Part shown: positions 6,301 through 56,850 of the stretch, piece after piece
Position numbering within the stretch: position 1 is the stretch's first letter
Layout of the letters: each line of letters opens with the position of its first letter
DNA from: Simmondsia chinensis
Taxonomy: Eukaryota > Streptophyta > Magnoliopsida > Caryophyllales > Simmondsiaceae
Assembly: GCA_018398585.1 (NCBI GenBank)
Contig: JAGTTD010000022.1
Coordinates: 3,003,501-3,067,500 of the forward strand
Reading direction: 5' to 3'
DNA: 64,000 nucleotides
Translations under genes and position numbers: made by a program
The notes under the pieces: generated by a model
The model's input: only the letters and a program-made list of their open reading frames with translations
Told to the model about the DNA's origin: nothing
Databases searched by the model: none

Positions 6301-6315
6301 CAGATTGAGGGGGCC

Positions 6316-6489
6316 TATTAGACTATAATCTAGAGTATTCTAGAATGTTCCTAGGGTTTTATGTTTTACCCTTTTGTCCTTTGACTTATGTAATCTGTAG
6401 GGACATTATAGTCTTTTGGTCATTGTACTTTGCCTATATATTGAGGCCTCCTATGTACTCGTTTATTCATTCAAATATAATATTTCTCA
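6316..6489 (+). repeat. 3' LTR of Copia-1
   Basis: Second copy of the LTR. It follows the purine tract ending gggggcc and is followed by ATTAC, the same five bases that precede the 5' LTR. Confidence 0.92.
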
Positions 6490-24402: not shown

Positions 24403-25279
24403 ACATTGGGTATTAAGACCGAAGTCGAGAAGTTCGGAGGTCAAGGAAGCTTTATGGCAGGTCCGTGTGAAAGGACTCTTGACTCAGAATGGCTTGAAGA
24501 AAGCACTAGAGCGGAAAGAGAAGAAACCCGAGAATATGACCGGGGCACAGTGGGAAGAGTTGGATGATAAGGCTCTCACGGCGATACAGATGTGTTTAAC
24601 AGATGATGTTTTGACAAAGGTCTTGGAGATGAAAACCGCTAAGGAGTTATGGGAGAAATTACTAGACATGTTTTGCCACAAGTTAGTCTCCAACAAACTC
24701 CCAGTGAAGCATTGGTTATTCACTTTCAATATGACAGAAGGTACATCTCTTAAAAACCATCTTAGCAAGTTTACATCTATCATACAAGAATTAAAAGAAT
24801 TGGATGATGTCCCTAAGGACGAGGACCAAGCTATGTTGTTACTGTGTTCACTCTCTAATTCGTATAAAAGCTTTGTAGAAAGCGTGATATACGGGGGTAG
24901 GCCGGGCATTACTATTGATGAGGTGAAAAGAAACCTTGTGAGTAAAGAACGGGTAGATAGGGAGTTATCTGACTCGGTGAATGACTCAAGTAGTGGTTTG
25001 CATGTGAGAGGTAGAACAAAACATAGGGGATCTGATAGTGGGAAGAAGTCTAGGTCTAAATCTAGACATAAGAACGTGTTGTGCCATTACTGTCACAAGA
25101 AAGGGCATATAAAGAAGAATTGTTATAAATATAAAAATAAATTGAAAGAACATAACAGGAGTGACCAGGGTAAAGATAAGTCCGCTGAGGCTAGTGTTGT
25201 AGAGGATGATAGTGATGGGGAGTTTATTTTAGTTGCTGATTCTCAGTCCAGGTCCAAGGATAAGTGGGTCATGGATTAG
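24403..25279 (+). pseudogene. Copia-2 gag remnant
   Basis: The N-terminus KTEVEKFGGQGSF (about 24412-24450) is in a different frame from the rest, which opens at 24467 with KGLLTQNGLKKAL. The body has the copia gag core (KALTAIQMCLTDDVL, TAKELWEKL) and a long Arg/Lys/Ser-rich segment. A CCHC knuckle follows, CHYCHKKGHIKKNC at about 25081-25122. The frame ends at 25277 with a TAG inside the protease start. The early frameshift means no full gag can be made. Confidence 0.85.
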
Positions 25280-26510
25280 AATTGTTCACATCACGTCAGT
25301 CTAAATAGAGACTGGTTTTTCACGTATAAGTCTATACAGGGTGGAGTTGTCTTGATGGGTAACGACGCTGCTTGTAAGGTAGTGAGGATTGAGACAATTC
25401 ATTTGAGGATGTTTGATGGGACTATTAGAACTTTGAGTGATGTGCGTCACGTCCTGGATTTAAAGAAAAACTTAATTTCTCTAGGTATCCTTGAATTTAA
25501 TGGGTATAAGTACACTACTGAAGGTGGAGTCATGCGGGTCAGTAAGGGTGCCTTAGTTGTAATGAAGGGGAAAAGGGTAGGTACTTTGTATGAGCTTGTA
25601 GGTATTACTGTGACAGGTTTAGTTGCTGTTTCCACATCCACTATGACAGATGCAGAGAGCACGAGATTGTTGCACATGAGGGTCATATTGGTGATAAGGC
25701 GTTATCTGAGTTGAGTAAAAAGGGACTGCTTTGTGGTCAGTCAACAGGACTGATGCATTTCTGTGAGCACTGTGTGTATGGGAAGCAGAAGAGAGTCAGC
25801 TTCAAGCCAGCAGTGCATCAGACAAAGGGAGCGTTAGATTATATACACGTAAAGTTTGAGTCTATTTTCTAAAACAAAAAAACGAAGTGTATGAAGTCTT
25901 CAAGAAATGGAAGATTCTGCTTGAAAAACAGACAGGGAAGCCGATAAAGAAGTTGAGGACTGATAATGGTCTTGAGTTTGTTGAAGGTGACTTCACACGG
26001 TTTTGTGAAGATCAGGGTATAGTTACACACAGGACATGTACAGGTCGACTTCGGCAAAATGGAGTGGTTGAAAGATTGAACAGGACGTTACTTGAGAAGG
26101 CTCGATGTATGCTTTCAAATGCAGGCTTGAAAAGAGAATGGTGGATAGAAGCAGTTAGCATGGCTTGCTACCTTGTGAACAAGACACCGCATTCTTCATT
26201 GCAGATGAAGACACCTAAAGAGGTATGGTCTGGTTCTACTTCTGATTATTCTCAGATAAAAGTATTTGGTTGTCCTGCATATGCTTATGTTAATGATGGA
26301 AAGCTGGAGCCTATGGCCAAGAAATGCATCTTTCTTGGTTATTCGTTAGGTGTGAAAGGATATAGGTTGTGGAATCCCAGTGCTCAAAAGTTTCTGATTA
26401 GTCGAAATGTTACCTTTGATGAGTCTGCTCTACTACATCCACCACACACACCCTCCATTGACAGTGATTTAGTTCAGGTTGAGGTACCTGATGTTACACA
26501 AATATAGTCA
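25262..26510 (+). pseudogene. Copia-2 protease and integrase remnant
   Basis: The protease should begin with the aspartic D-S/T-G motif. Here the sequence reads MD-stop-N-CSHH at about 25270-25290, so the active site is lost. The following frame (25352-25714) has the protease end and LDLKKNLISLG. The pre-integrase has [11 protein letters not shown] near 25770. Integrase resumes at 25887 with EVFKKWK, LRTDNGLEF (catalytic D) and QNGVVERLNRT (catalytic E). The stretch with the first catalytic Asp, expected between about 25850 and 25885, is deleted. Confidence 0.82.
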
Positions 26511-26597
26511 AATCAGCAGGTACTTCAGCTAGAGAGTATTCCGGCACCTTAGGTACGGGTTTCTGATGTTGTTGATAATGCAGAAACAGGTCAGCAG

Positions 26598-28195
26598 GTG
26601 GAGAATAATACTATAGCTGATGGTAGACAGAGGCAACAAATCAGGCCTCTAGAGAGATATGGGTATGAGGAGCTGGTTGCTTATGCCCTTACAACTTCTG
26701 AGTCTTTAGATGGCAGTGAGCCGACTTCGTATTCAGAGGCTATATCGAGATCCGATGCTGAGAAGTGGCTCATTGCTATGAATGAAGAGATGCAGTCTCT
26801 TCATAAGAACCAGACATGGGAATTGGTGAAGCATCAAACAGGGAAAAGACTGATTGGTTGCAAATGGGTCTTTAAAAGAAAGGAGGACATTCCTGGAGTT
26901 AAAGATGCAAGATACAAGGCACGTTTGGTAGCTACAGGCTACAGTCAGGTACAGGGTGTAGATTTTCATGATATATTTTCACCTGTAGTTAGACATACTT
27001 CGATTCTTGCACTTTTGTCTTTAGTAGCCATGCATGACTTAGAGCTTGAGCAGTTAGATGTAAAGACTGCATTTTTACATGGTGAACTAGAAGAGAGTAT
27101 CTATATGCATCAGCCCGAGGGCTTCGTTGTAGAAGGAAAGGAAGACCATGTATGTTTGCTTAAGAAATTTAGCAGTGGTATGGGAGATTTTATCAGTTCA
27201 TGACAGGTCATGGGTATATCAGGAGTAAGTACGAAAGCTGTGTGTACTTCAGAAAGACTGATACAGGCTCCTTTGTTTATTTGCTTTTATACGTTGATTA
27301 TATGTTGATTGCAGCACGAGACATGAAGGATGTTGATGACTTGAAATCTATGTTGAAGAGTGAGTTTGTGATGAAATATCTTGGAGTAGCTAAGAAGATT
27401 TTAGGAATGTAGATTCATAGAGACTGAAAAGCCGAAAAATTATACTTGTCACAAGAGAAGTATATTGAGAAGGTATTAGATAGGTTTCATATGAAGGATG
27501 CTAATCCAGTTAGCACGCCCTTTGCAGCTCACTTCAGACTTTTAGCACTTGATTCGCCTCAGACTGAGGAGGATGTCAGGTACATGTCTCAAATTCCCTA
27601 TTCTAGTATAGTGGGCAGTATTATTTATGAAATGGTTTGTACGCATCCAGATATTGCTTTTGCAATGAGCAGAGTCAGTAGGTACATGGTGAATCCAAGT
27701 AAAATGCATTGACATGCGGTGAAATGGATTCTCAGGTATCTTCGTGGAACTTCTGATGTTTGTTTGGAATATGAGAAAAGTAAATGTTGCTTGGTTGGGT
27801 ATGTAGATTTTGATTATGGTGGAGACCTCGATAACAGAAAGTCCACATCAGGGTATGTGTTTTGTTTAGGGGACACAGCTATCAGTTGGAGAGCGTGTCT
27901 ACAGTCTGTTACAGCGCAGTCTACTTCCGAGGCCGAGTATATGGCAGTGACAGAAGCATTCAAAGAAGCCGTCTGGTTGAGGGGTTTGATTAGTGAGATC
28001 AGTGCTGAGCAGGGCACTGTTAAAGTCTACTGTGATAGTCAGTCTGCCATTCACCTAGCGAAGGATCAGATGTCGCATCATGACAGAACGAAGCATATAG
28101 ATGTGAAGCATCATTTCATTAGATATCTGATTGATAAGTGGCAGGTGGAGTTGAAAAAGATAGGGACAGAGGGCAATCCTGCTGACATGTTCACC
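26598..28195 (+). pseudogene. Copia-2 reverse transcriptase and RNase H remnant
   Basis: RT begins about 26720 (EAISRSDAEKWLIAMNEEMQSL) and has QLDVKTAFLHGELEE. A short deletion/frameshift at about 27163-27199 removes the YGLKQ segment. The catalytic motif near 27290 reads YVDYM where copia RTs have YVDDM, so the second catalytic Asp is Tyr. RNase H runs from 27719 with DFDYGGDLDNRKSTSGY, TSEAEYMAVTEA, VYCDSQSAIHLAKD and a KHIDVKHHFIR segment. Internal stops at 27411 and 27711 confirm it is dead. Confidence 0.87.
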
Positions 28196-30555: not shown

Positions 30556-32581
30556 TTTTGACGCCTCTGATACTATTATACTTAAATATTCATAGGACGG
30601 TCTTGTACTCTACTATGATTAACTTTGTTGATATGGCGTTGTCTTTCCCCGATTTTGTGCTCGTTTATGGGGATGGTTAGTTCACTTCCCCGCCACGACT
30701 ATTACTAATGGAAGTTGTATTTTCAGACCGAATCTTTCTGTTGATTGCTTTATTTAAAGGGGTGTTCGAGCTAACTTACGTACAACTTCGCAAATTTTCA
30801 AAGTCTAAAGTTTGCTCAAAACATGCCCTACATGGAGTAAGGTAAGTCCAGGTCCACTAGCCCAATGGACGGCTCCAACGATAGATAATAAGATTTAGGG
30901 CATGTTAGTTGGCCAATTCTTTTTATGGAAAAAAAGTGCTTTTTTAAGGGGAAAAAAATACTTTTTCTTGATTTAACGATACTTGGCCAAAAAGAACAGT
31001 GCTTTCAAATAGCAGCAAAAGTTTGTTTTTCTCTGTTCAAGTAAAAGTAGAAAAAATAATACATTTTCTTTAAAACAGAAGTAAAAAATTAAAAAAATTT
31101 CAAACAAATGTACCCTTATTGAAAATACTATTTATAAAAGTATTTCTATAAAAGTACTTTTAATAAATTATTTTTTCACGGGTTGACAAACAAGTACTTA
31201 AACTCCATATACCCAATACTTTATGAGTCCTTTATGTTTTCTATAAGGCTTCGTGCCAAGTATATCTTACTATCATAAACTTTATGAATTTATATACTAG
31301 TTACTTTATCGTACGATTTGTTTTTACACAGTAAAAACAAACTCCTTAACCATGCCCTCTTTTTAGAAGGTACTTAAGGTATCGACAAGAGTAAAAGGAG
31401 AGGTCGTGTGCGAAGTAAAATCCTCAAACAAAATGCCAGAACCCCCATGACCTGGGTTTGCTAACCAATATGTCGATCTATTTGTTCTCTAGAGTATTGT
31501 TTCAAACGGGCTCATACTATGATACATAACAGAGGAGGCTTTATCCCAAGACTAATTGACAATAGGTGGAGTAACTCCTAGAGTATATATATTGGCATTT
31601 CTGTAGTTAACCAACTAATGTGAGATCCTTATTCTCCTGTATCATACTAAGTGTTTAAGATCTTAATATCATCAATAATAGTAATAATATCCACTGAAGC
31701 TGAATACGATCAGATAGCTGCCTTGATAACTACCTCATTATCTCATATAGAATAATTTTTCTTGTTCTCGATTGCTATAAAAAAAAAAAAAGCCTAATTT
31801 CATCGTACGATTTTCCATGGTCTAAACATTCTTTCACCACTTACGTCGGTTTGTAAGTCGTGTTAGAACTATGCTCAATTTGTACTCAATTTATATACCT
31901 AATTTAAATGTCAAAAATTTTATAGAAGTCATTCTTCTCAATATTTAATAAATGGATATTGAATTAAACATTTAAAATAACGAAATGATATATATATTCT
32001 ATTTATTTATCCAATTTAAATATTCATAATATGATGATTTATAGTTGAAATATTAGTTAAATAATATTTATCCCAACATAACTATTTCAAAATTGAACAC
32101 TTTGATTTTTAGGTGCTCTAAGCTTTAGTAACTTTTCTATCATCTACCGTCTTCGTAACTTCGTTAAATTTCGTTAATTGTACTAATATGAAATTTGAAA
32201 AATAATTTACCAAGAGTAACAAGGTCATTTATATTTAAAATAATTTCAATTTAAAAAAAATATTCTAAAAATGAGCATATAAGTTTTGAAATTTTTTCAG
32301 TTTTAAGAATTATTTATTGGGAGTTTAAGAAGTTTAATATTTTTTTTAGTTAGTCTTAATGTTTAAATATTTAAAATTATTTTCAATATATATAATGTTT
32401 TAAGCATTTTCTTTCCTGTATGTGACACATCTGCATAATTTAACATACCCTACAATTATGGGGAGAATACCTTAAAAAAAAGTTACTATAGCATAGGTTA
32501 TTTAAAAAATATTTTAAAACCTCAAGTTTGGGAACCGAACTAATTTCAATTAAGGTAGCAGGGCTCCTTTGATTAAATTAG
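30556..32581. other. Intergenic DNA with a MITE and a copia relic
   Basis: No gene supported. About 30895-31200 looks like a MITE (ggcatgttagttggccaatt left end; ttgacaaacaagtac right end). At about 31693-31745 the plus strand reads STEAEYDQIAAL, the RNase H STEAEY signature of copia elements, as an isolated remnant. The rest is AT-rich. Confidence 0.4.
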
Positions 32582-32723
32582 TATTAGGATATAATATATT
32601 TGTGTGTTATTTATTCTTGTACTTATAGTCCTATCTGGACTTTATTTTATGTACTCTTCCTCTCTTATAAATATAAGCCTGGGCCACCATGTTATGCACG
32701 TCACTCAATCATAGGGTTTCACA
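32582..32723 (+). repeat. 5' LTR of Copia-3
   Basis: Matches 39678-39828 and ends CA directly before TTGTATCAGAGC (32724-32735), a one-base variant of the initiator tRNA-Met primer-binding site. Confidence 0.9.
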
Positions 32724-32868
32724 TTGTATCAGAGCAAATAAACCCTAATTACTTTCACCAACCCTAATTTCAAAAAAAAAAAAGGAAAGAAAAGGGGAGA
32801 AAAGTGTCGAATACCTATTCGACCTTTCATCTCCCCTAAGGTAGTGCTGCTGGCAACCCCATGTAGTG

Positions 32869-33283
32869 TGTTGTGTACCTAGGGTTTAGGTTAAATTCCC
32901 AATAAAAATGAATTTAGAAGTTAAAATACCTAACTAACTTTTAAATGGCATTCCGGGGAGGGAAATCGGTTAGGAGCCGTTGGCTATTTTGGCGCACTAT
33001 GATTGTTTTCAGATTTTACCAAATTTTTTGTAATTTTGATAAGTTGTTTCCCTCTTCCCTCATCCCTCAAGTCTATATAAAGGGATGTTATGGCATGTAT
33101 TGATTAATTTTGATGATAATAAGAATTTATAATTCCAATTTCTCTCTCTAACTCTCTCTTTCTCCCTTACTTTCTTCTTCAATTTTCTAATTCTCCCTTA
33201 ATTCTCTTCTTCTCCTCCCTCTTTCTCTACAATTCACTATGATTTACAAGTTATGATCCAAGATTAAGTGTTGGGTCATAGCA
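32869..33283 (+). repeat. 5' LTR of the nested element
   Basis: Pairs with 34437-34829. The 5' copy has about 20 extra bases in a CT-rich tract (ctctctctaactctctcttt) plus scattered substitutions. It contains TCTATATAAAGGG at about 33073, a plausible TATA box in both copies. Confidence 0.9.
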
Positions 33284-33328
33284 ACTTAGTATCAGAGCAC
33301 GTTAACCGATCCTCGAAGGCACGAATTA

Positions 33329-34351
33329 ATGGGTTCTGAGTTGCAAAATGTTGCCGCAGTCACTGAATATTGGTTGTATGATCAGCAATTATTCCGAATT
33401 GATATGTTTCTTGAAAAATTGGAGGTACTTCTCAGTAGTCAACATGTTGGGCAATCAACATATGAACTAAAACAGGTTGGTATGGATTTGATGTTACAAA
33501 AAATTGAATCTCAGGACAAAAAAATCGGTATTATTGTTTACATCAAAAATTTTCAATTTTGGGAAGACGAAAGGTTGGAGCATGTCAAAGAATGGAGGGA
33601 CAGAGCTTATGCTAATATAGATAAATTGATGGAAAATATGATTGCCATCCAAGAAAATCAGCCTCAACCCACAAATCAAGATCAAAAAAATCAACCAAGA
33701 AGTCCCCAATCACAACCAAAACATGAGTTTCTTTCACTTGTCCTAAGTTTGGAAAAGGATGTTGAAGAAACTCATGTAGGTGTCCAAGATTTGGGAGAAA
33801 TCCAAATGCTTAAATTGTCTCCAACCATTCCTAGTGAAATGCCTGAATCCATTAGAGAGTACATAGAAGAGAAATATCTTTTGCCAAGATTGGACCCTGA
33901 TGAATTCTCTCTGGACAAAGCTGGCAGAGGCTAGGACTTTGATTGGCTTGGTAAGGCTAAAATACCACTGGAACCAACATTACCTCAGTCAATTGCTGTT
34001 ACTGCATGGGAATTGCCATTTAGTCATTCAAAAGAGGAGGCACATCAAGGAATGTGGGAGTCTTGGGCTACTAATGGAGGCAGTGAACATATCGCAGAGC
34101 ATTTTCTTGAACTTTTTCTTGTTATGGTACTAGATTTCACTTTTGAATTAGAAGCGTTCCAAAAGGAGGCTATCTACTATCTTGACAAGGGGAAGTCTGC
34201 TTTTGTGACTGCATTACTCCTTGAATTTAGTGCTAAGGCTGCAAAAAACTTCAAGAGGAGGAAGAAAAGGAAAAAAAAAAGAAAAGAAAAGAAGATCAAC
34301 CAAGTTTGTATAATGTCGCAGTTGGTTGTTCATGATCGTGAAACCCGGTGA
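33329..34351 (+). pseudogene. Gag-like N-terminus fused to two captured SKI2 helicase segments
   Basis: One frame of 341 codons with a single TAG at 33932-33934. Residues 1 to about 155 start MGSELQNVAAV and are Gln/Lys-rich and gag-like, with no match I can name. From about residue 165 it reads ESIREYIEEKYLLPRLDPDE, then the TAG, then DFDWLGKAKIPLEPTLPQS and AWELPF. This matches the N-terminal region of plant SKI2 (DExH11), where a conserved Trp stands at the stop position (a one-base TGG to TAG change). Then GGSEHIAEHF and FELEAFQKEAIYYLDKGKSA match the start of the helicase core. The SKI2 match ends just before the Walker A motif. The C-terminus is a Lys/Arg-rich tail. The intervening part of SKI2, roughly 200 residues, is absent. 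No helicase activity is expected. Homology was recognised from memory and not searched. Confidence 0.75.
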
Positions 34352-34436
34352 TTTGAAAAAGTGAAGACAATCCTTAAGGTCAAGGATTAACTTTTTTTTT
34401 GGGGGGGGGGGGGGGGGGGGGGGGGGTTGGGTTTAA

Positions 34437-34829
34437 TGTTGTGTACCTAGGGATTAGGTTAAATTCCCAATAAAATAGATTTAGAAGTTAAAATACCTAA
34501 CTAGCTTTTAAATGGCATTTTGGCGGGAAAATCGGTTAGGAGCTGTTGGCTATTTTGGCTCGCTATGATTGTTTTCAGATTTTACCAAATTTTTTGTAAT
34601 TTTGATAAGTTGTTTCCCTCTTCCCTCATCCCTCAAGTCTATATAAAGGGGTGTTATGGCATGTATTGATTAATTTTGATGATAATAAGAATTTACAATT
34701 TTAATTTCTCCCTTACTTTCTTCTTCAATTTTCTAATTCTCCCTTAATTCTCTTCTTCTCCTCCCTCTTTCTCTACAATTCACTAGGATTTACAAGTTAT
34801 GATCCAAGATTAAGTGTTGGGTCATAACA
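34437..34829 (+). repeat. 3' LTR of the nested element
   Basis: Second LTR copy, ending GTCATAACA at 34829. It is followed by TAGAG and then by Copia-3 leader sequence (caccaccaccaccagcgg). Confidence 0.9.
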
Positions 34830-35025
34830 TAGAGCACCACCACCACCAGCGGTCACCCTCAACCGCATTGACCGTCGTCCTCTGTTCGACCGTGTCACCT
34901 TCATCGCCGTTGTTCCCTCTCTTCGGCAACCCCGCCTCTGTTCTCGATTCTTTCTCTCTCTAAATTCGGTGGTCCTAATTCCGATGCTCTCTCTCTTCTC
35001 CTCCTCAATTGGTTAGGGCTTCTCC

Positions 35026-36200
35026 ATGGCAGTAAGGGAATCAATCTCCCAAACCAGCAATCTTTGGCTATGTCCTCCCCTGCTCATCCCGCCAGCAACG
35101 CCATCCCTCGTCGCTCCGGTCTCCTTCTCCAACCGCTCGTCAGTGGCTCTCCCCTTCTTCAGCACGGTTCTTGCACCTCTACCGACATCCGTGCCCACTT
35201 CGGGCACTGGTGATCGTCTTTCCCAATTTACAGCCCTAGATTCTACTCCTTAACCCCCGATGTCTACACCCATGGCTGATTTTAGTCCAAATACACCTCC
35301 TATATCGCCTTCCTTATCCTCATATCTTCCCTCTCTACCTCCTTCTCTACGTCCACCGTTACTAAGCTTGTTACCGTCAAATTAGAGCAACCACTAACTA
35401 CTCTGCCTGTTGTGACAAATATCCATGATTTTTCGAGCACCCTGACTGATGGGATTTGTTGATGTTACCCTCCCTTGTCCGTCTCCCTATCTCCTGCATA
35501 TTGATGGCTCATCTATTCTGAATCCTGATTACACCTCCTGGACGTGTACTGATCAAAGTATTAGCTCTTGTATTGCAACTACCCTTGTCCGGTCTGTCCT
35601 CTATGATGTCATCCGTCAAACCACTTCCAAAGATATGTGGGGCGCTCTCAATAAACGCTTCCGTGATCATTCCCTTGCCAAGGAATTCGACCTACGTAAC
35701 CAACTAGCCTATCTTTGCAGAGACAACGAAACAATGGAGGCCTACCTTTTTGAACTTAAATCCATTGCTGATGATCTTGCTACCATTGACTCCCCTATCT
35801 CCAATAGGGAGCTTCTTCATTATGCACTATTTGGTCTTCCTCCTGAATATGACACCTATGGTACTCTCATACGCCATTACCCAATCAATCTCACATTTGA
35901 AGACTTAAAGACGTTCCTCCTTAATGAAGAAGCCGTTTATGCTCGAATCTAGAATCGACAACCATCTGAAGCTTCTCACGCACTAGTGGCTCATGGACAA
36001 TCCCTTGATACATCTGGTAGTGGTCGAGGTCGTGGTAGAGGTGGTCGAGGTAATCGTAACAATTATCGTTGTGGGAAATCTGGTGGGCAACATAATGGGG
36101 GTGCTGGTCAATCTGCAATGGGGGGTATGGTCAGCCACCCCCTACGCCTAGTCATGGGAACTGGGTCTCTAGCTTTGCTCCTCCACACTAAAATCCAATG
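35026..36200 (+). pseudogene. Copia-3 gag remnant
   Basis: The proline/serine-rich N-terminus (35026-35253) is out of frame with the main gag frame at 35449-35952. That frame has NPDYTSWTCTDQSI, ALNKRFRDHSLAKEFDLR, ETMEAYLFELKSIADDL and LLHYALFGLPPEYD, a copia gag core. A TAG at 35950 cuts it off from the Gly/Arg-rich tail at 35986-36080 (SGRGRGRGGRGNRNNYRCG), which keeps only part of a zinc knuckle. It is similar to Copia-1 gag but less deleted. Confidence 0.85.
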
Positions 36201-36299
36201 GTAAGACCTTCAGGTAACTTTTCTCGTCAATTTTGTGATAGTATGTTGGGACCCGGACCAAGTTCCCATAAGATTTGCCAACAATTTGGGTGCACTGCT

Positions 36300-37866
36300 C
36301 TTCAAGGCCCTCATTGCTACTCTCAACTAGATATTTCCTCGTCTCTATCTGTTATGTCTGTTACTGAGCCTGACTACACGTGGTACCCTGATTCTGGGGC
36401 ATCTAACCATTATGAATTCCAACTCAAGTATCCTTCTTAACTCATGCCCGTACTTAGGATCTCACTCTATTTTAGTTGGTAATGGGTCATTACTACCTGT
36501 TAAACATGTTGGTTCATCTATCATACCCATTGCAACTCGTCCTTTACACTTGTCTAATGTTTTCCATGTGCCACAACTTACTTTATGTTAAACAACTGTG
36601 TCGTGGTAATAATTGCACTATTGAATTTGACTCTGACTCTTTTTGTGTTAAGGACAAGGCAACGGGGACACCTTTACTTCATATGCACACTAATGGGACG
36701 TTATATGGCTCCTCCCCACATCACATTGGATTAGTTGCCCATTCGGTACCCACTGACACTTGGAATAGACGATTAGAACATAGAGGAAAAACAATTTTGG
36801 ATGTTTTACATAAACGTTGTTTAGTTTCTTTTAATAGATCCGCTCTTGGACATTGTTAACTAGGTTGTTTAGGGAAATCTCATCGTTTATCTTTTGATCA
36901 TGTGATGCATACATGTACTCGTCCTTTACAGTTATTACATTCTGACGTTTGGCAAGCCCCCATCTCCCCTAACTCTGAGTACAAATATTATGTTCTTTTT
37001 ATTGATGATTTTTCATGCTTTACTTGGTTGTATCCGATGCGTGGGAAAGATAAAGTTTACAACTTGTTTTCTAATTTCAAAACACCTGTTGAAAATTAAT
37101 TTAATTGTAAAATTAAATGTTTTCGGAGTAACGGTGGTCGTGAGTTCGACAATAGAAAAATGGCTGCCCTATGTCGTTCCCTTGGCATCCACTTTCTTCT
37201 TTCCTGTTTTGGTACTCCACAACAAAATGGAGTAGCGAAACGCAACTATCAGCATATTAGTGAAATGGTGCAAAAGCTACTTTTTCAAGCTCATTTACCT
37301 GCAAAATTTTGGGTTGATGTGGCATGTACGGCCTGTTTTATTATTAATTGACTTCCCACACCACTTTTAACTAATGTTTCTCCTTTTGAAAGGTTGTTTT
37401 ACATTGTTCCCAACTACTCCGCTTTTCACGTTTTTGGGTGTGCATGCTACCCTAACATCACACCCTGCACCGCTCATAAATTGGCTGCTCGAGCTATTCC
37501 ATGCATTTTTTAGGATATGTTGCATGCTATAAAGTGTATCGATGTTTTGATCCTAAAATTAGTCGCATACAGGTTAGTCGCAATGTTCACTTCGTTGAAA
37601 ATTTATTTCCCTATTCGTCTATCATATCAAGAGTCACATATTCTTTTGACTCTTCTCCCATAACATATGAGGTCCCTCTTATGATAACCGTCTCGGGTCC
37701 CCCTTCCCTAGGTTCCACTCATGCACGGCCTCATAGTGAGACTAACCACATCACACACCTTACTCATGTGGTCCCAGCTAGCCTCCCTAGGTCCTGCACC
37801 TCTTCCATTCAGTCTGATTCGGACTTAGTCATCAATCCCATGTCGCCAACCCCTTACCTTTGCTAG
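36300..37866 (+). pseudogene. Copia-3 protease and integrase remnant
   Basis: The protease active site WYPDSGASNH is visible at about 36382-36412, so the DSG triad is retained, but a stop follows at 36440. Pre-integrase has WNRRLEHRGKTILD with the expected HRLGH altered. The integrase core starts near 36902 with YYVLFIDDFSCFTWLY (catalytic D). It continues in other frames through [15 protein letters not shown] (about 37212-37255), where the expected catalytic Glu of VAER is Lys (VAKR). Frames change at least four times. Confidence 0.82.
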
Positions 37867-38079
37867 GAGAGTTGTCTAGTGCACACTCTAACACATCACA
37901 AGCACTTTTCTCATCTCGATCTCCCCGTGATACTGTTCCACCCTCACCAGAGGTAACCCCACCGCCGCTCACTAATGTGCATCCTATGCGTACTCGTCTC
38001 AAAATGGTAATCAAAAACCAAAATATATCTTGTCCTTATCTACAATTACGGTAGTACAAGAGCGCGCATGCTTTTCTCA

Positions 38080-39660
38080 AGCTGTTAAGAATCCTTAGTA
38101 GCAAGAGGCAATGGCTAAGGAGTTCAATGCTCTTTTACAAAATCAAACGTGGGATCTTGTTCCGCCTACTTCAAATCAAAATGTAGTTGGCAGCACGTGG
38201 AAATACATGGTTAAGTATAAGGCAGATGGTTCTGTTGAATTGTTTAAGGCTAGGCTCGTTGCTCAGGGATTCCATCAAAGGGAAGGTATTGACTACTTTG
38301 AGACCTTTAGTGCTATGGTCAAACCTACAACTGTTCGTTTCATTCCCTCTTTAGCTATCACATATAACTGGTCTATATGCCAACTTGATGTCAAAAACGC
38401 GTTTTTTACATGGTCATCTCACTGAGGAGGTGTACATGAAACAACCTCAAGGTTTTGTTCATCCTAGATTTTCTAACTATGTTTCTCGTCTTCGTAAGGC
38501 ATTGTATGGACTTAAACAGGCTCCGGAGTGTGGTTTCATCCGTTTAGTACTTTTCTCCTTAGTCAAGGTTTCCACTGTAGTCATGCTAACCCATCTTTGT
38601 TTGTTTTTCGCTCATCTTATGATCTTGTTTGTCTGCTTTTGTATGTTGATGAAATTATTTTTACTGGCTCTAGCACTAACTTGCTCATATCTATCATTAA
38701 AATATTTTCACACCAATTTTCTATGAAAGATCTTGGTCCTCTTTACTATTTTCTTGGTATTGAGGCCAAACAGAGTGTTAATTGGCTGTTTTTAACTCAA
38801 CATAAATACACAATTGTTCTCTTACTTAAACATGATATGCGTGACTCTAAACCTGTTCAAACTCCCCTACCATCTTGAGTCCAACTATCCCAAACTGAAG
38901 GTTACTTGCTGATCCTACTGAGTATCTTAGTACTGTAAGTGCACTCCAATACTTAACTATGACTATGCCTGATATCTGTTATGCAGTTAATCGTATTTTC
39001 CAGTTTATGCATGCTCCCAAGTCTTCTCATTGGCAGATGGTTAAGCGGATTCTTCGCTACCTCATGCTCACACATTGATCATGGCCTTACCATCCAACCA
39101 GGCTCTTATACCAGGATCATAGCATATGCTGATGCTGATTGGGGTAGTTGTCTAGATACTAGACGGTCTAGTACTGGTTATGCCCTCGTCCTCATACCTA
39201 ATTTTATTTCTTGGCCAGCAAAGAAGCAACATACTACTATTGCTGAATCAACTACCGAGTCCGTGTATCGGGTAGTGGCCAATGCTGTTGCCGAAAGTGA
39301 CTGGTTGCGCTACATCACGCGTGATCTTGATATTCGCCTTTCAGGTCCAATCATTCTTTATTGTGACAATGTCTCTACTACGTATCTTCTCTAATGACCG
39401 CACCAAACATGTTGATGTTGACTATCACTATGTTCGTGAGAAAGTTCTCTCCAAAGATACGTAGTGATGTTGACTATCACTACGTATCTTCAGGTTTGTT
39501 ACAATCCTACTAACAAGCAAGTTGCAAATATCTTCACAAAGAGACTTTCCTTAGATTGCTTCCGCACTCGTAAAGCCAATCTGCACGTTGGTCTCTCCAA
39601 AGAGACTTTCCTCAGATCACTTCCGCACTCGTAAAGCCAATCTGCACGTTGGTCCCCCCG
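38080..39660 (+). pseudogene. Copia-3 reverse transcriptase and RNase H remnant
   Basis: RT frames: 38111-38425 ([29 protein letters not shown]), 38385-38520 ([23 protein letters not shown]) and 38528-38878, where the catalytic motif reads YVDEI in place of YVDD. RNase H is at 39115-39394 with YADADWGSCLDTRRSSTGY and STTESVYRV. Past 39394 the end is scrambled by local duplications. Several stops and frameshifts; not functional. Confidence 0.85.
39410..39660 (+). repeat. Local tandem duplications at the Copia-3 RNase H end
   Basis: GATGTTGACTATCACTA occurs at about 39413 and again near 39467, with a mirrored aagatacgtagtgatg/cactacgtatctt around it. A unit of about 62 bp (ctccaaagagactttcc to cacgttggtc) is repeated head to tail at about 39536-39597 and 39598-39658. 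These duplications lie just upstream of the polypurine tract. Confidence 0.7.
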
Positions 39661-39677
39661 TTCAGATTGAGGGGGCG

Positions 39678-39828
39678 TATTAGGATATAATATATTTGTG
39701 TGTTATTTATCCTTATTTATCTTTTACTTATAGTCCTACCTGGACACTATCTTGTGCATTCTCCCTCTCCCATAAATATAAGCCTGGGCTACCATATTAA
39801 GCACGCCACTCAATCGTAGGGTTTCACA
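39678..39828 (+). repeat. 3' LTR of Copia-3
   Basis: Second LTR copy; differs from the 5' LTR by an extra tatttatcctt-like stretch and substitutions. Followed by ATTAA. Confidence 0.9.
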
Positions 39829-39982: not shown

Positions 39983-42905
39983 TTTTTTTTTAATATGGTA
40001 AAACCCGAGAAATGTGCTTCAGCGTCCACTCCTTAAAGAGGGGCATCTTGAAGCTTCGGCTATTGAAATGAGAAGGAGGGATCTAGTTGGCTCCTTGATA
40101 TGTAGCTGGAACCCTGTCATCCCGAATCCTTCACTAGCCATGAAGTCTGCTGATCTGTTTGCCTCGCGGAAAACATGGGAGAATTTTATACTGGAAGCTC
40201 TACCCGCGAGGGTCCGGATATCCTCTCTGATTGTTCTGATATCCCTGGGCAGAGTACTCATCATTCAAGGTTTTAATGACCACCTCATTATCCCCTTCAA
40301 CAATAATCCGAGTGGCGCCCATAGACATGGCCTCGCAGAGGCCATCACGCGCTGCAACGGCTTCCGCCACAATGACTGGGGCGTTGCCCAGCTTTGTGGT
40401 TCCGCATCTGACAATTTGACCATTATGGTCCCTGATGACAAAACCAGACGCAGCCTGAGTTCCTCTCTTTGCTCCATCAAAGTTGATCTTAAGCCATCAT
40501 GTTGCCAGAGGGGCCTAGGTTATCCATCTATACCTGATCCATGCTGAGGTTCTGTCGTGGTTATGGTCGACATTGTTTTCATCGATTTTTGCTCTGCATA
40601 ACCAATCTAAGCTCATAGTTTTGGCTCGGTTGAGGGTCTAGGCTGGGGAGGGATTCTCCTTTCTAAATATCACGGTGTTTCTGTCTTTCCAGATTTGCCA
40701 ACATACAACCACGAATTTCTCAATGTCTTTGTTTTTCCTTCTTGCTCTAAGTTCCTCCCTTAGATCCAACCTCGACGGTAGGGCAGGGATCCACTAGGAT
40801 ATGGCCGCCGTGTCCCAGACTTGCTTCGAGCGAGGGCACCTAAGGAATAAGTGCGACACATTCTCGCAGTTACTTTTGCACCATGTGCACGTGTCGTCCC
40901 AATCCGGAAGGCGTTTCTTCATCTGGCTTCCTATTGCCAAATATCCGTTAAGGGCTTGCCACAGGAATATCTTGATTTTCGGTTGGAGATCCAGGTTCCA
41001 AATCCACCGGAACTCCCAACCATTTTCTGTCCTTCCAGCTCACGTTGTGAGCTAGCCAGGTTGCCGATTTCACACTAAAGTCACCCGAGCTAGTGTAACC
41101 CCACCCCAATTGGTCCTCCGCCCAGGTGTGAGGGATAGGGACTCCCATGATGGCGTTAAGGGTCTCATGAGAGACCAGATCACTCAAACATTCGCGGTTC
41201 CATCCCCCATTAGTTATCACCTCTGCTACATTAAGGGATGGGTCCACCCCGTCTAAGTTTTCACCCTGTCCCTCGATCAGAGGAGCCTTTGCCACCCACC
41301 AGTCCTTCCAAAAGTTTATCTGGTTTCCATTGCCAACTCTCCACTTTAAGCCTTTGTGAAGGATTTGTTTAATTGACAGGATGCCCTTCCATGCAGGTGA
41401 GTCCGTAGATTTTGCCTTGTACTCAAAGAGCGATTCTTTTTTTAGGTACCATTCCTTGATGAATTTGATCCACAGGTTGTCCTCGTTCATCAGGATCCGC
41501 CATCCCAGTTTGCAGAGGAACGCCTGGTTAACAGATTCCAATTTTCGCAGACCCAGTCCCCCGGCCTCTTTTTGCCGGCAAATGGAGTTCCACGCTGCAA
41601 GAATGATTCCATTCTTTCCTGTCTTATTCCAGAAGAACCGTCTGCTTACAGTGTCTCCCTGTTTACAAACTTTTTTGGGGAGCTTAAAGCATTGCATCAC
41701 ATGGCTTGGCAAAGATTCAACTGAGGCTTGAATCAACGTGGCTCGCCCCGCCTTAGAGAGGGAGCCAGCTTTCCACCGAGAAACTGTATTCTCCATTTTG
41801 GAGATCAAGTCTCCCGCAACTTGAGATAAGAATCTTCCTGTTCCGAAGTTGCATCCTAGGTCTCGTCCCAGTGCCGAGTCGCCTGGGATGCCTCGGATGT
41901 CGGAGATACGTTGTTTTTGGCTCCTATCCATATTGGAGGAGAAGACAGCTGCAGACTTTGCACGATTTACCCGAAGTCCCGAGTCTTCACAGAAACGGCT
42001 CACCGTCCTGTTCAAGCGTTGGGCGACTTCAACCTTTGCTTCACAGAAGAGAAGACAATCATCAGCAAAGAATAAGCATGGGATTGGACTGATTCCCCTT
42101 GCCAGCTTGATTGTTGTTCCTGACTTCTTTTCTTTACAGATATCCTGGAGGTTAGTAGCTAATACTTCCATACATAATATGAACAAATATGGTGATAGGA
42201 GGTCACCTTGCCGAAGTCCTCCGGAGGGGGCAAACCATCCAATAGGTTTATCTTCAATCAAAATAGAGAAAGATGTTGATGAAACACATTCCATAATCCA
42301 GGACACCCATTTGTCATGGAAGCCTATTTGTTGTAAGATGCATTTCAGGAAGCCCCATTCCACTCCATCATTTGCCTTTTCCATGTCTAGTTTTGCCGTT
42401 ACCCAATCAGACGTACCTTTTTTCTTCTTGAAGGTAGCAAGGACGTTATGGGCGATGAGAATATTATCCTGAATATTTCGTCCTGGGACAAAGGCAGCCT
42501 GCTATTGAGAAATAAGCTCGGGCATTAGAGATTTCATTCTGTTGACAAGGACCTTGGCAATGATTTTGTAAAGTACATTGCAAAGGCTGATCGGTCGAAA
42601 TTGGTTTACAGTTTGAGGCGCATCCACTTTTGGGATGAGGGTAATAAAGATATGGTTGATCTCCCGCAAGAGGGATCCACCCTTAAGGGTAGCCCTAATA
42701 GCGTTACATATATCTTTGCCAATAATATCCCAATAGTTCTAGAAGAAAAAGGCCAAAAACCCGTCCGGCCCAGGGGTTTTGTGGGGGTTCATGACAAAGA
42801 TCGCTTCTGAGATTTCCGACACGTATAGTAGGGATTGAAACTTTGGAGGGTAAGGAGTAAACGAGTTCCGACGCGTAGACTCATGAATTGGCGTTCAGTT
42901 TGCCA
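39983..42905 (-). mobile_element. LINE-B: 5'-truncated L1-type LINE
   Basis: Minus-strand RT, zf-RVT and RNase H domains end near a T-run at 39983-39991 (poly-A on the element strand). The endonuclease and ORF1 are missing, as homology begins inside the RT at about 42900-42830. 5' truncation is typical of target-primed reverse transcription. No clear TSD was found. Confidence 0.85.
40010..42850 (-). pseudogene. LINE-B ORF2 remnant (RT, zf-RVT, RNase H)
   Basis: From about 42830 downward: NPHKTPGPDGF, then FRPISLCNVLYKIIAKVL and KLDMEKANDGVEW. The frame at 42384-40948 (478 codons) is open and holds GLRQGDLLSPYLFILCME, the catalytic LFFADDCLLF, and ending RT/zf-RVT blocks with WRILMNEDNLWIKFI and WRVGNGNQINFWKDWW. 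A shifted frame continues through zf-RVT. RNase H is at about 40510-40200 with INFDGAKRG, GFVIRDHNGQIV and AEAVAARDGL. Stops upstream of 42384 and after 40948 break it. The 478-codon frame keeps the catalytic residues, so this is the least decayed LINE frame here. Confidence 0.85.
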
Positions 42906-48431: not shown

Positions 48432-51400
48432 ATGGAAGTAACTCTCTTCTCCTTCCTCTTCCTCCTCTCTTTTTCTCTCTCCTCCTCTCTACACTACCAA
48501 ACCCTAACCCTAACTTCTCTACCCGAACCCATTTCCCTCGACCCGACCCATCAACAGCAACTCTCAACCTCATTCGGGTCAGGTCAGCCCGACCCATTCA
48601 CCCTCCACCTGTACCACATCGACGCGCTTTCTCCCAACAACTTCACCGCCCAGGCCCTCTTCTCTCTCCGCCTCAAGCGCGATGCCACCCGGGTCAAATC
48701 CATCCACGCGCTTGAGGCCGCGCGTGTTGGGAGTGGCTTTAGCAGCTCTGTGGTTTCCGGGCTTTCTCAGGGGAGTGGCGAGTACTTCACGCGCCTAGGT
48801 GTGGGCACCCCACCAAGGTACTGATGCGTAATTGTACCTCAAAATTATTGGGTTATTTGCTAAAAACGATTCCAAAAAATCTCTAACATGTTTTAATTTT
48901 TCAATTTGACACCTAAATTTTTAAAATTTTTTAATATCACACTTTAGTTTAACGCAGTTAATATATGTTAGTTTTGGATGACATAAAGAATATACCTAGT
49001 GCCTCAAGGGCTCCCGCCTAAGCAGGTTCTTGGGGGGGGGGGGGGGCAAATGTACGCAGCCTTCCTCCTTCAGGGTGTTAACTTGAAGAGAGACGGTTTC
49101 CCAGTACTTTTAACCTAAGGGTGAGGATTTCCCATAAGGTCACCTATCCTGGTACTATTCTCGTCCAAGTACGTTTCACTCTGCTTAACTTCGGTGTTTT
49201 TGATGACATATGACATTTAAATAAATATTTTTTTTTAAAATGTGTAGTTTGTTTTTTTAAATATTTACAGATTTTCAATATATTTAAAATATTTTAAATT
49301 TTAAATATAGATTCGAATTTCTAAAAATTATTTCCCCTTTTTCAAAATCCAAGTCAAAAATATTAAGAAGAATTAACGGCGTCACGTGAAGATGTGACAC
49401 TAAAAAATTTAGTAAATTTTTTTTTAAATGCATTTGAAATTTAGGTAATTTTAGAGCCGTTGTACAAAATGATTCAAAATTAAAAAATATTACTTAAAAT
49501 AGCCCATTTAAAAATATATATTTTCAAATAGCCTCTATATTAGCAAATTTAAAAAAAAAATTGTTTAAAAATTTTAAACCCTAAACCCCAAAATAAAACC
49601 AAAAAAAAAAAAATTAAAATTTTAAAATTTGACGACGTGGAGATCATTTGAGGAAATCTTTTTTGAAATGTGCTATTTTGTGTAATATTTTTTATTTTAG
49701 GCTATTTTAGGAAAATGCTCTAATTTAAGTAAAAAGAACCCTTATTTTTATGTATAGAATGAAAATAGAAGTTGAAGAAAAAAAAATGAAAAATGAAAAA
49801 TAATATATAAAAGAAATTAGAAAAAAGGAGAGGAAAGATATATTTTTTCTTTCTTTTTTTTTTAATTAATAACCCACTTGGGAAAAAATTGAAGAAGTTG
49901 GGTAGTTTACTTTAATGAGATAAATAAAGGGGTTGTCAAGATTGAAGTGTGATAGTGTGGAAAAGGAAAAAATGTAGAGGGTGAGTGAATTTTGTAAAGG
50001 GGTAATGAGAGTCATTCGGGTCGGGGAGAGATCGAGAAAATGATTGTGAGTGTTCATTTGTGAGGTTGTTGTGTTTGATATCGAGTGAGTTTCATTCAAG
50101 CACGAAGAGCGTTATGCTTAGGTGGTTTGGTTGAGAGAACTTTTATGGCTTTCTCTATTGCAGGCTTGGCGAGATGACCATCTTGAAGGATTGGCAACAC
50201 GGGCCATAGAGCTTGAAGAAGTTTTACATTAATTAGGATACTTTAGCTTAGTTTAGAGTAGAAGATAATTATTAGTTATTTTTATAGTTGTCTTTTTAGT
50301 TTGGATAAATTAGCTCCTCTAGAGAGAGAGATTGATTCGCGAGGATTGGATCGAATTTCACAGGTGTCCATGAGGCGACGGAGACTTTCCTCTCAGGTTG
50401 GGGGTCCTCGAAAACAGCCTCTCTTCAGATTCACACCCTGAAGGGGGAAGACTGCGTACATCTACCCTCCTCAGACCCCGCTTTTGCGAGAGCCCTTGAG
50501 GCACTGGGATTGTTGTTGTTTGTTGTTATAAATTAGTTCCTCTATTCAAGGAAGAGTAACCCTTGGGTTTTATTTAGGGACAGTGCTATAAGACACGAGA
50601 GAGGCGGGGGACACAAGGACACGAGAGAGAGAGAGAGAGAGCTCTCTCGTGTCCTCGTGTCCTCCTCCCCTCTCGTGTCATCTATCATTTTCCATCCATT
50701 CAATTCTTAGATGTTTTCATACTTTTATGTGTTTCTTTCTAATTCTAAGTTATGAGAATTTAGTTAAAATTTTTTCTTTGTTTCTACTTGTTTTAGCAAT
50801 AGAAATTTAAAAAAAAGCCGTTGAATCTTCTGTTTTTCCATATTTTCCTTATCTGCCCTACATCACTGTGCAATAGTCACATCAATGATAATTGATTTTA
50901 ACACAGGATTGTAATATGATTGGAGATAGTAATTCTTAAATTTGATAGTTGATGAGATGTCCATTTAGATCCCGTGATTTTTCTTAATGTGTTATTTTTT
51001 GCTATGATTGTGGATTTTCGCATACACTGAATGTGTGATTTTGTCAACAGGTACATGTACATGGTGTTAGACACAGGAAGCGACGTCGTTTGGATCCAAT
51101 GCAAACGCTGTACAAAATGCTACTCTCAAGCTGACCCCATTTTCAACCCTTCTACGTCCCACTCTTACGCCACCATCCCTTGTGGGTCCCCTCTGTGCCG
51201 CCAGCTAGACCAGCCACCGTGGTGCCCCTCACGCGCCAGTAAGTGCGCATACCAGGTCGCCTACGGAGATGGGTCCTTCACCAGGGGTGAATACGCCACC
51301 GAAACGCTGACGTTTCGTGGCACTCGAGTCCCAAACGTCGGGCTTGGGTGCGGTCATGATAACGAGGGGCTCTTCATTGGCGCAGCTGGTTTACTGGGTC

Positions 51401-52053
51401 TTGGCCGGGGAAAGCTCTCTTTTATTACCCAGACCGGGCGCCGGTTTGGTTCTAAGTTTTCGTATTGTTTAGTGGACCGGTCCGCTTCGTCGAAACCATC
51501 GTCGTTGGTTTTTGGTGAACCAGCTGTGAGCCGGTCAGCGGTTTTCACCCCATTACTAACCAACCCAAAACTCGACACGTTCTACTACGTCCAACTCGTG
51601 GGGATCAGCGTCGGGGGCAACCGGGTACCAGGAATAACCGGTGAATTATTCAAAATAGACCAGACTGGTAGTGGTGGGGTGATAGTTGATTCGGGCACGT
51701 CCGTTACGCGGTTGAACCAACCCGCTTATGTAGCATTGAGGAATGCATTCCGGGTCCGAGCTAAATCCTTGAAGCCCGCACCAGGGTTCTCGTTGTTCGA
51801 CACATGTTACGATCTAAGCGGTAAGATGGTGGTGCGGGTTCCCACGGTGGTGATGCACTTCGCTGGCGCTGACGTGGCATTACCCGCGAATAATTACTTA
51901 ATTCCGGTGGATACTTCGGGCCGGTTTTGTTTTGCGTTTGCGGGTACAATGAGCGGGTTATCCATAATAGGGAATATACAGCAGCAAGGGCTCCGAGTTG
52001 TGTTCGATCTGGCAGGTCGTCGAGTCGGGTTTGCCCCAAAAGCATGTGCTTGA
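48432..52053 (+). CDS. APF2: Aspartyl protease family protein 2-like (pepsin-type, secreted)
   Basis: Two exons, 48432-48817 and 51051-52053, join to 462 codons; the intron is GT...AG (donor gtactg, acceptor tcaacag). I chose the ATG at 48432 (context gccATGG); an upstream in-frame ATG at 48396 would add 12 residues before the signal peptide. Residues 1-20 (MEVTLFSFLFLLSFSLSSSL) are a signal peptide, followed by a propeptide. The mature part starts near GEYFTRLGVGTP. First catalytic site DTGSDVVW (D136), flap YGDGSF, second site DSGTSVTRL (D342). About ten Cys fit the plant A1 disulfide pattern, and the end is FAPKACA. Length and motifs match Arabidopsis At1g01300/At3g61820 as I recall them. 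It has no plant-specific insert. Likely secreted or cell-wall; substrate unknown. It is the only intact gene in the window. Confidence 0.93.
48852..49475. repeat. Foldback MITE, family F3 (copy 3), in the intron
   Basis: The left arm (cgattccaaaaaatctctaa, aatatcacactttagtttaa) pairs with the right arm (gaagatgtgacactaaaaaa, ggtaattttagagccgttg). The 5S-SINE is inserted near its centre. Confidence 0.5.
48986..49201 (-). mobile_element. 5S rRNA-derived SINE (copy C), in the intron
   Basis: The 9-bp TSD GATGACATA flanks it (48977-48985 and 49202-49210). Minus strand: a shortened 5S head beginning near CCGAAGTTAAG, with a small internal insertion, then GGATAGGTGACC, then the shared tail. A G-run of 16 at about 49031-49046 replaces part of the tail. 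It is antisense to the host gene. More diverged than copies A and B. Confidence 0.82.
50321..50527 (+). mobile_element. SINE with tRNA-like head and shared tail, in the intron
   Basis: The 16-bp TSD ATAAATTAGYTCCTCT (one mismatch) lies at 50305-50320 and 50528-50543. The first 70 bases include GGATCGAATTTC, a candidate Pol III B box. The remainder is the shared tail (gggtcctcgaaaacagcctc to gcgagagccctt), ending in gttgttgtttgttgtt. The head differs from both the 5S-SINEs and the LINE 3' UTR. Same orientation as the host gene. Confidence 0.75.
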
Positions 52054-55456: not shown

Positions 55457-56850
55457 TCAAGTTGGAGCATGTAAATTCACAATGCCCAACTTGCCAATAA
55501 AAGAAGAGTGCCCTGGATGGCCTAAGGCCTTGGTGAATAAATCCGCAATTTGTTCTCCACTCCGAATGTAGGCTATGGCGATCTCCTTGGACAGTAATTT
55601 CTCACGAACAAAGTGACAATCTATCTCAATGTGCTTCGTTCGTTCATGAAATACAGGATTATATGCAATATGAAGAGCTGCCCGGTTATCACAAAACAAT
55701 AAGGCAGGATTATCAGTGGGAACAATAAGATCAGATAATAACTGACGCAACCACACTATCTCACTAGTCGTGGTAGCCATAGATCGATATTCTGCTTCAG
55801 CTGAGGAACGAGACACCACAGTTTGTTTCTTGGACCTCCAAGAAATGGGCGACTCTCCTAAGAATATAACATACCTCGTTGTAGATCGTCTAATTGTAGG
55901 ACAACCAGCCCAATCTGCATCACAATAAGCTCGGAGTTTCAAATCACAATTAGAAGGAAGAAATATTCCTTGTCTCGGTGTCCCCTTAAGGTAACGTAGA
56001 ACTCGCATAGCAACATCGAGATGATGCATACGCGGATCATGCATAAATTGACTTAATATACGAACAGCATAACAAATGTCAGGGCGCGTAATAGTCAGAT
56101 ATAATAGACGACCAACTAAACGTCTATATTGACCACTATCAACAATGGGCTCGCCAACGCCATCTGCTAGCAAATGGTTTTGAACTATGGAAGTAGACAC
56201 GGGCTTAGCACCTAGGATCCCTGCTTCACTAACAATGTCAAGAGCATATTTTCGTTGACTAAGCATAATTCCCTTTTGAGAACGCGCAACCTCGATACCC
56301 AAAAAATATTTAACCGGTCCTAGATCTTTAATTCCAAAAGATCGATTCAAGGTGGCTTTGACCCCTTTATTGTGTTCTTCATCATTACCCGTTATGAGTA
56401 TGTCATCAACATAAATGAGAACTGCTGTATAGGTCGTCCCATTCATATAGGTAAATAATGAATAGTCAGCTTTAGATTGTTGAAAACCTATCTTAATTAA
56501 GGTCGAGGTGAATTTGTGATTCCAATTTCGGGAGGCTTGTTTAAGTCCATATAAAGATTTTCGAAGGCGACAAACTTTCCCTTCATTTTTACGTTCAAAA
56601 CCCTGAGGAAGCTTCATGTAGACCTCTTCATCTAGGTCTCCATGAAGAAATGCATTATTCACATCTAATTGTTGGATAATCCAACTTCGAGCCGAGGCCA
56701 CGGCCAACACACAACGAACAGTTACAAGTTTAGGTACCGGAGCAAAGGTATCATGATAGTCTATACCTTCTACCTGAGTGTACCCCTTAGCAACAAGACG
56801 AGCTTTATAGCGTTCAATTGACCCGTCGGATTTGTACTTGATCTTGTAAA
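55457..56850 (-). pseudogene. Copia-4 reverse transcriptase and RNase H
   Basis: A 417-codon open frame (56710-55457) holds QQLDVNNAFLHGDLDEEVYM, YGLKQASRNW, the intact catalytic LIYVDDILITG, the connection (YFLGIEVARS, TRPDICYAV) and RNase H (CDADWAGCPTIRRSTTRY, SRSSAEAEYRSMA, LFCDNRAALHIA). It ends GKLGIVNLHAPT. The RT N-terminus (about 56860-56711) is in the same direction but separated by a frameshift or stop, so the whole pol cannot be made. Catalytic residues look intact. Confidence 0.88.

Follow-up and report, generated by a model that had tools for sequence, protein, structure and literature searches.

Exons of several host genes inside a pol-less LTR retrotransposon family of a plant genome

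In a family of LTR retrotransposons without pol, spliced host mRNA has very probably, and repeatedly, taken the place of the central part of the single reading frame. One copy lies in the window studied here, a stretch of 64,000 nucleotides (C15:3003501-3067500) of the 831-Mb plant genome searched; by its sequence features it is a non-autonomous LTR retrotransposon, one decayed, SKI2-carrying copy of its family, and SKI2 is the sole captured host gene that it holds. At least 40 places in the genome match the first ~327 nt or more of its 5' coding module (40 of 91 candidates were scored), and host-gene pieces are present in 29 of the 41 copies read, which comprise 36 of the 40 places and five copies from the SKI2 DNA search.

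The window element and its SKI2 insert

The organization of the window element is given in Table 1. Both LTRs are direct and of the TG...CA form, as in LTR retrotransposons, and differ by 14 mismatches and 22 gap positions. The element that they bound (1,961 nt, 32869-34829) has no pol frame among the open reading frames between the LTRs, and no gag-pol was recognized by eye in the translations of the family copies. The 5' LTR is followed by a PBS-like stretch, ACTTAGTATCAGAGC, which we take to be of the iMet tRNA type and which reads GATTGGTATCAGAGC in sister copies such as L010. The LTR lengths, the primer-binding site and the lack of pol reported in the first-pass annotation are all borne out; the target-site duplication that it also reported agrees at only 4 of 5 positions in the window element (tagtg/tagag), but is complete (5 of 5, flanks read by eye) in sister copies L017, L018, L023, L026, L042 and L043, and on that reading the family would be a normal LTR element. 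One LTR end base is mutated in L017, L018 and L026.

Table 1. Features of the window element and the element that hosts it, in window positions.
Feature	Position	Strand	Basis or remark
Left target-site flank, tagtg	32864..32868	.	one base off right flank
5' LTR, 415 nt, TG...CA	32869..33283	+	LTR comparison
PBS-like stretch, ACTTAGTATCAGAGCACG (TTGGTATCAGAGC in sister copies)	33284..33301	+	follows 5' LTR
Native 5' coding module (MGSELQNVAAVTEYW...EIQMLKL)	33329..33817	+	genome matches, translation
Captured SKI2 exon A, first 243 of 258 nt	33818..34060	+	5' join exactly at exon start
In-frame TAG in the window copy	33932..33934	+	
Captured SKI2 exon B, complete	34061..34168	+	deletion join to A with GAG microhomology
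SKI2 exon C, first 39 nt	34169..34207	+	exact splice join to B; ends before Walker A
TTGTG microhomology of exon C and native tail	34203..34207	+	L046 tail as stand-in
Native Lys-rich tail of the frame (TALLLEF.AK..NFK...), in frame	34208..34351	+	
G-run just inside 3' LTR, polypurine-tract position	34401..34426	+	
3' LTR, 393 nt	34437..34829	+	LTR comparison
Right target-site flank, tagag	34830..34834	.	
Older Ty1-copia element with the window element in its leader	32581..39828	+	

TRIMs are very small LTR elements with no coding capacity; the window element, with 1,961 nt, LTRs of 393-415 nt and a coding interior, is not one of them, and its bounding LTRs likewise set it apart from processed pseudogenes and LINE retrocopies, which have poly(A) and no LTRs. 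With intron-free host exons between its LTRs it resembles gene-transducing elements of the Bs1 type. The 5' module gave nothing over the cut-off in Pfam (best DUF6674, at 0.067), no homologue at E<=1e-3 among 17 candidates, and a single-sequence fold of helices only with a mean pLDDT of 49.9.

The surrounding Ty1-copia element has repeat blocks in 32581-32723 and 39677-39828 and a gag at 35449-35952 (Retrotran_gag_2, 8.9e-19 in Pfam). The window region is seemingly dense in LTR elements, with frames that we take to be copia gag- or pol-like at 5653-6321, 24467-27203, 55457-56710 and 58372-59217. There is also a leftwards 478-codon frame (40948-42384), presumably of a LINE-like reverse transcriptase (FADDCLLF motif), and the clearest ordinary host gene seen in the window is an open, rightwards 340-codon frame at 51031-52053, presumably coding for a plant aspartyl protease-like protein (DTGSD...VDSGTS motifs).

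A DNA search of the same genome with 33780-34250 gave 19 matches, all 19 candidates being scored, and three of these are exons of one gene on the minus strand of C11, with identities of 90% (33819-34060), 88% (34059-34169) and 90% (34167-34207). The C11 gene reads as SKI2, and it is the 88-90% DNA identity to this intron-containing gene that decides the identity of the insert, in agreement with the resemblance noted in the first-pass annotation. By protein sequence the nearest solved structure is yeast SKI2; SKI2 chains in the PDB match the second piece at E=1.4e-4, and the first 44 aa alone find no match there at E<=10. With the parent, introns included, on a contig other than that of the window, the insert is not a set of ordinary SKI2 exons in place. 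The first-pass annotation had described two pieces, and these prove to be three exons, namely 243 nt of the 258-nt exon A, the whole of the 108-nt exon B and 39 nt of exon C; they are spliced, as it had proposed, with an exact splice join between B and C, and they end just before Walker A, where the parent reads FVAAHTSAGKT.

The join between exons A and B is a deletion that takes away 15 nt from the end of exon A together with the intervening exons, with GAG on both sides, and the first base after it is unlike the parent in all six full copies. We take exon A to be exon 2 of SKI2, a reading of our own rather than an annotation and one that partly presumes the plant SKI2 gene structure. The putative start exon, MDRVPVANELSFRVG..., ends ...GATTTCATTCTC and runs in frame into exon A. 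This end (read as ...TTCTC) has nothing in common with the element side of the join (...AAATTG; ...CTTAAATTG), so the 5' join is placed unambiguously at the first base of exon A.

Full coverage of 33329-34351 is found at six of the at least 40 places, and one more stops in exon A. The six full copies, the window element among them, share all SKI2 joins and are 90-91% identical to the parent, with their inserts in sense orientation, and the truncated copy shares the 5' join. The 5' join is the same in two further copies, L016 and L017, which then pass, via a shared CTAGGG, to middle SKI2 exons with exact splice joins (C1|C2 and C2|C3), and L023 has the later exons D and E, also exactly joined. 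The middle exons were therefore not lost at capture, as had been suggested from the window alone, and their absence from the window copy is a secondary deletion; one longer SKI2 capture followed by differing internal deletions would be the simplest history. No copy like the window element is present in the part of the SKI2 gene covered and the 5 kb upstream of it (C11:34974017-34985400), where there is one 34-nt purine-rich match, and no donor insertion thus survives there.

Captured genes across the family

The copies were assigned to lineages by DNA similarity of their inserts (Table 2). SKI2 exons are present in 10 of the 41 copies read (L009-L017 and L023); with several other genes captured as well, the element is no specific carrier of SKI2.

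Table 2. Host-gene inserts of the 41 copies read.
Insert	Copies	Loci
SKI2 A-B-C	7	L009-L015 (L015 truncated)
SKI2 middle exons	2	L016, L017
TM9SF-like + SKI2 D-E	1	L023
CPN60	4	L018, L021, L024, L049
Protein kinase	3	L019, L022, L025
RAD23-like	3	L020, L026, L028
Phosphoglycerate mutase	6	L042-L044, L054, L055, L061
Mutase + Sec24	1	L027
Beta-galactosidase	2	L040, L041
No host gene recognized	12	L045, L046, L050-L053, L056-L060, L062

Pfam matches were obtained for CPN60 (1.4e-18), kinase (1.6e-13), mutase (2.4e-14) and Sec23/24 (1.1e-10), and PDB matches for mitochondrial HSP60 (2.3e-36), mutase (1e-27) and Sec24C (4.2e-12). The beta-galactosidase insert is weak in Pfam (0.014) but good in the PDB (6.1e-15). 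The RAD23-like and TM9SF-like pieces are weak in Pfam (UBA 0.044 and EMP70 0.048) and the PDB search with them gave nothing useful; their names are partly our presumption, and the kinase is presumably of the receptor-like cytoplasmic type. Three copies of the 5' module lie in the same orientation within 5 kb at C2:12274822-12279448, and at C31:16681168-16682962 there is an oppositely oriented pair with a spacing of about 1.1 kb.

Among the copies without a recognized host gene, L056, L057, L058, L060 and L062 have a long open frame composed of the 5' module, an acidic middle and a Lys-rich tail, and are probably the native form; L056 and L057, with open frames of 373 residues, are taken for it here.

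Many captures are stacked. Two or more host genes are present in 12 of the 41 copies (four of the CPN60 lineage, three kinase, three RAD23-like, L023 and L027), four of the 12 involving a weakly supported gene, and five of the nine insert types combine two or more genes, two of the five including a weakly supported one. Several host genes per element, a further Bs1-type feature, are seen in L027 (mutase and Sec24) and L018 (CPN60 and mutase). The tail of L018, L019, L020 and L026, from the CPN60, kinase and RAD23-like lineages, is a mutase piece with 79-83% identity to the C2 paralogue against 74-77% to that on C10, except for one of the two L026 segments (80.2 to C2, 80.7 to C10). The mutase copies and L027 are nearer to C10 (86-94%), the exceptions being a 57-nt segment of L042, equally close to both, and the short exon-5 pieces of L044, L054, L055 and L061 (73-79% to C10, 72-79% to C2), which may be what remains in the element of an older mutase piece. 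Mutase was thus taken from two paralogues.

Intron loss, joins and reading frames

The search for parents gave five genes with introns, one of SKI2 (C11), two of mutase (C10 and C2), one of Sec24 (C17) and one of CPN60 (C30). In the copies nine introns are absent, removed exactly at the splice sites, four from SKI2, two from mutase (joins 2|3 and 5|6), one from Sec24, with one base changed at the join, and two from CPN60, from which it follows that capture was from spliced RNA. Two other candidates for the Sec24 parent, L088 and L089, have no DNA match to the insert, and L090 was set aside as a weaker paralogue. The non-element loci taken up from the Pfam chaperonin search do not match the CPN60 insert, and no CPN60 was found in the region upstream of one of them; locus L073 (C11:19395025-19396509) is an apparently intronless chaperonin frame of 579 codons, CCT-type by eye.

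The 5' joins that can be scored against a parent fall at exon starts without microhomology in two of three cases, SKI2 and CPN60. At the CPN60 entry the parent reads gcag|ACTGGGAG and the copies ...AGAA|GCTGGAAA, within 1 nt of the exon start, and the preceding exon, read as ATGTTCCGC...CGATTG, has nothing in common with the element side; we read the entry exon as exon 2, again our own reading rather than an annotation. The third join, of mutase, lies mid-exon with a shared TCCAA, so splice-trapping is not general, and capture always by splicing is ruled out as a rule. The CPN60, kinase-lineage and TM9SF-like inserts begin at one element position, to within about 2 nt, a coincidence that for the kinase-lineage and TM9SF-like inserts concerns the element side only. 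At the equivalent of window position 33817, the SKI2 entry, L045 reads AAATTA|GTGAGA, which is splice-donor-like, and the L045 sequence downstream of it may itself be captured; no splice donor is visible in the window element, and only L045 has such a site.

Microhomology at the nine joins with both sides known, which are not a random sample and for which L046 supplied the native tail, is 6, 3, 5, 6, 9, 5, 3, 1 and 0 nt. The value of 0, assigned by hand, belongs to the SKI2 5' join, and the 1 to mutase 3|5 in L044/L055, computed against C10 exon 5 and thus possibly with the wrong right-hand side. Random sets of nine joins reached the observed sum in 292 of 200,000 draws when self-pairing at the same place was permitted, and in 0 of 200,000 when draws of overlapping positions were excluded. 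The result is also 0 of 200,000 without the doubtful join of value 1, and again when two joins inspected by eye are added (GAATT at Sec24|tail; none at SKI2|LTR in the truncated L015). Splicing into the host gene is likely for the SKI2 and CPN60 entries, to judge from these sequences, and most of the other scored joins share 3-9 nt, the pattern that template switching leaves.

The frame of the window copy, described in the first-pass annotation as one of 341 codons, is split by a TAG at codon 202 (33932-33934) into open stretches of 201 and 138 codons in the same frame, so it is not one intact gene. Other copies have long open frames across the joins: 456 unbroken codons in L019, where the frame starts in the 5' module and spans the kinase and mutase pieces, and 374 in L027, spanning mutase and Sec24, with open runs of 302 codons in L018, 287 in L017 and 303+96 in L026. 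Frame shifts and stops occur in others, for example L011, L022, L024, L025 and L028, and the frame scan did not locate the start of the 5' module in L040-L044. Founders would thus appear to have kept the frame across joins in at least these lineages, with decay in later copies. Differences from the SKI2 parent, summed over the six full copies, are spread 66/86/72 by codon position, counts that are not independent since the six are related, and five of the six have a stop in the SKI2 frame. These figures argue against a role for the SKI2 peptide once the copies had been amplified, and for a filter on founders that were active; avoidance of nonsense-mediated decay of the element's genomic RNA is the reason that we would favor.

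Origin of the captures and relation to known systems

The history that we consider most probable is as follows. Elements would move by enzymes supplied in trans, and the material that they captured came from spliced RNA. For SKI2 and CPN60, splicing likely linked a site within the 5' module of an element transcript to the first acceptor, that of exon 2, of a downstream host gene. Template switching during reverse transcription would account for the mutase entry, the 3' returns to the element and the internal shrinkage, as the sequence pattern at these joins suggests. Founder chimaeras with no break in the frame between the 5' module and the Lys-rich tail would then have been amplified, either for protection of the genomic RNA from nonsense-mediated decay or from a need for the fused protein, and inserted copies would decay without coding constraint, as the SKI2 copies have.

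Splicing need not have played a part, if all joins, the SKI2 and CPN60 5' joins included, are template switches between co-packaged element RNA and host mRNA and the exon starts are coincidental. We consider this less likely than not. Microhomology at most scored joins and the mutase 5' join, which is of just this kind, speak in its favor, and abnormal template switching is described for plant LTR elements in a 2026 review (PMC13317346). It has to contend with SKI2 and CPN60 5' joins that lie at exon starts and share no letters with the end of exon 1, with a chance probability for two exon-start entries that we estimate at about 1 in 2,000 (exons of 85-258 nt, the mutase miss allowed for), and with three inserts that start at one element position. 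The opposite extreme, in which the family is a dedicated exon trap with a fixed donor position in its module, picks up genes from exon 2 onward and amplifies only frame-preserving chimaeras, is a tentative possibility, held at much the same level.

Two further explanations are improbable. Tandem and nested copies (C2:12274822, 12276285 and 12279122; L011 and L028 with extra LTR-like blocks) indicate that DNA recombination may act in the family, and host fragments might have been joined at the DNA level, when element copies and retrogenes underwent ectopic recombination or gene conversion, with the element merely amplifying the product; yet the exact loss of nine introns, from four kinds of gene, is what reverse transcription would directly give, and the parents are spread over C2, C10, C11, C17 and C30, which makes this very unlikely. 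Hardly better placed is the idea, raised in the first-pass annotation, that the family is a regulatory vehicle whose SKI2-derived sense or small RNA would silence or titrate the host SKI2. The presence of SKI2 exons in 10 of 41 copies, six of them full and 90-91% identical to the parent, is what it would have in its favor, but the inserts are in sense and differ from the parent by about 9-10%, many unrelated genes have been taken up by the family, and nothing seen favors silencing or titration over neutral hitch-hiking.

In the transduction of oncogenes by retroviruses, read-through and splicing operate at the 5' side and template switching at the 3' side. The 5' splicing route and 3' template switching proposed here are similar, with the differences that the copies lack pol and that the captured pieces are without known action.

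Gene capture by LTR elements is itself known, as in maize Bs1 and the soybean TRIMs. Bs1 holds segments of three host genes (PMC13317346) and, by titles cited in that review, has a hybrid reading frame; Bs1 resembles the present elements in being an LTR element with host-gene pieces and a hybrid frame, and differs in that here one family has many lineages with differing gene sets, common entry points and older captures partly overwritten. The gene-carrying TRIMs of soybean and Medicago (PMC4717578) are likewise small LTR elements with exon-only fragments, and their 5-bp TSD has a counterpart in the sister copies listed above. They measure 1,172-1,449 bp, whereas the present captures sit between a conserved 5' coding module and a Lys-rich tail and have open frames running across their joins. 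A maize survey reports 425 LTR elements that carry gene fragments, a minimum of 189 captures and, under the conditions used, no element with more than one standard nuclear gene (PMC2774510); gene-fragment capture by LTR elements on a genome scale is common to both, but five of nine insert types here hold at least two genes (two of the five with a weakly supported gene). In pepper, NLR genes are retroduplicated by LTR elements according to PMC5664825, which also places spliced host mRNA inside LTR elements; there a single gene family is concerned, and here genes without relation to one another, whose exons form short runs fused to a module of the element. In the openly licensed PMC literature we recognized no report of this family or of a serial, frame-keeping, multi-gene variant with shared entry points, and it is serial, frame-keeping, multi-gene capture within one family that we regard as new.

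Captures by LTR elements are usually met one at a time, as accidents that leave the route hard to trace. Here many captures have legible parents, entry and exit points and overwriting, so that each join can be scored for splicing against template switching, the old question in the transduction of host genes by retroelements. Frames that stay open across the joins suggest a selective filter on the RNA of a non-autonomous retroelement, and the family is a natural shuffler of host-gene exons; were it indeed a dedicated exon trap, a plant genome would have in it a source of in-frame gene fusions that renews itself.
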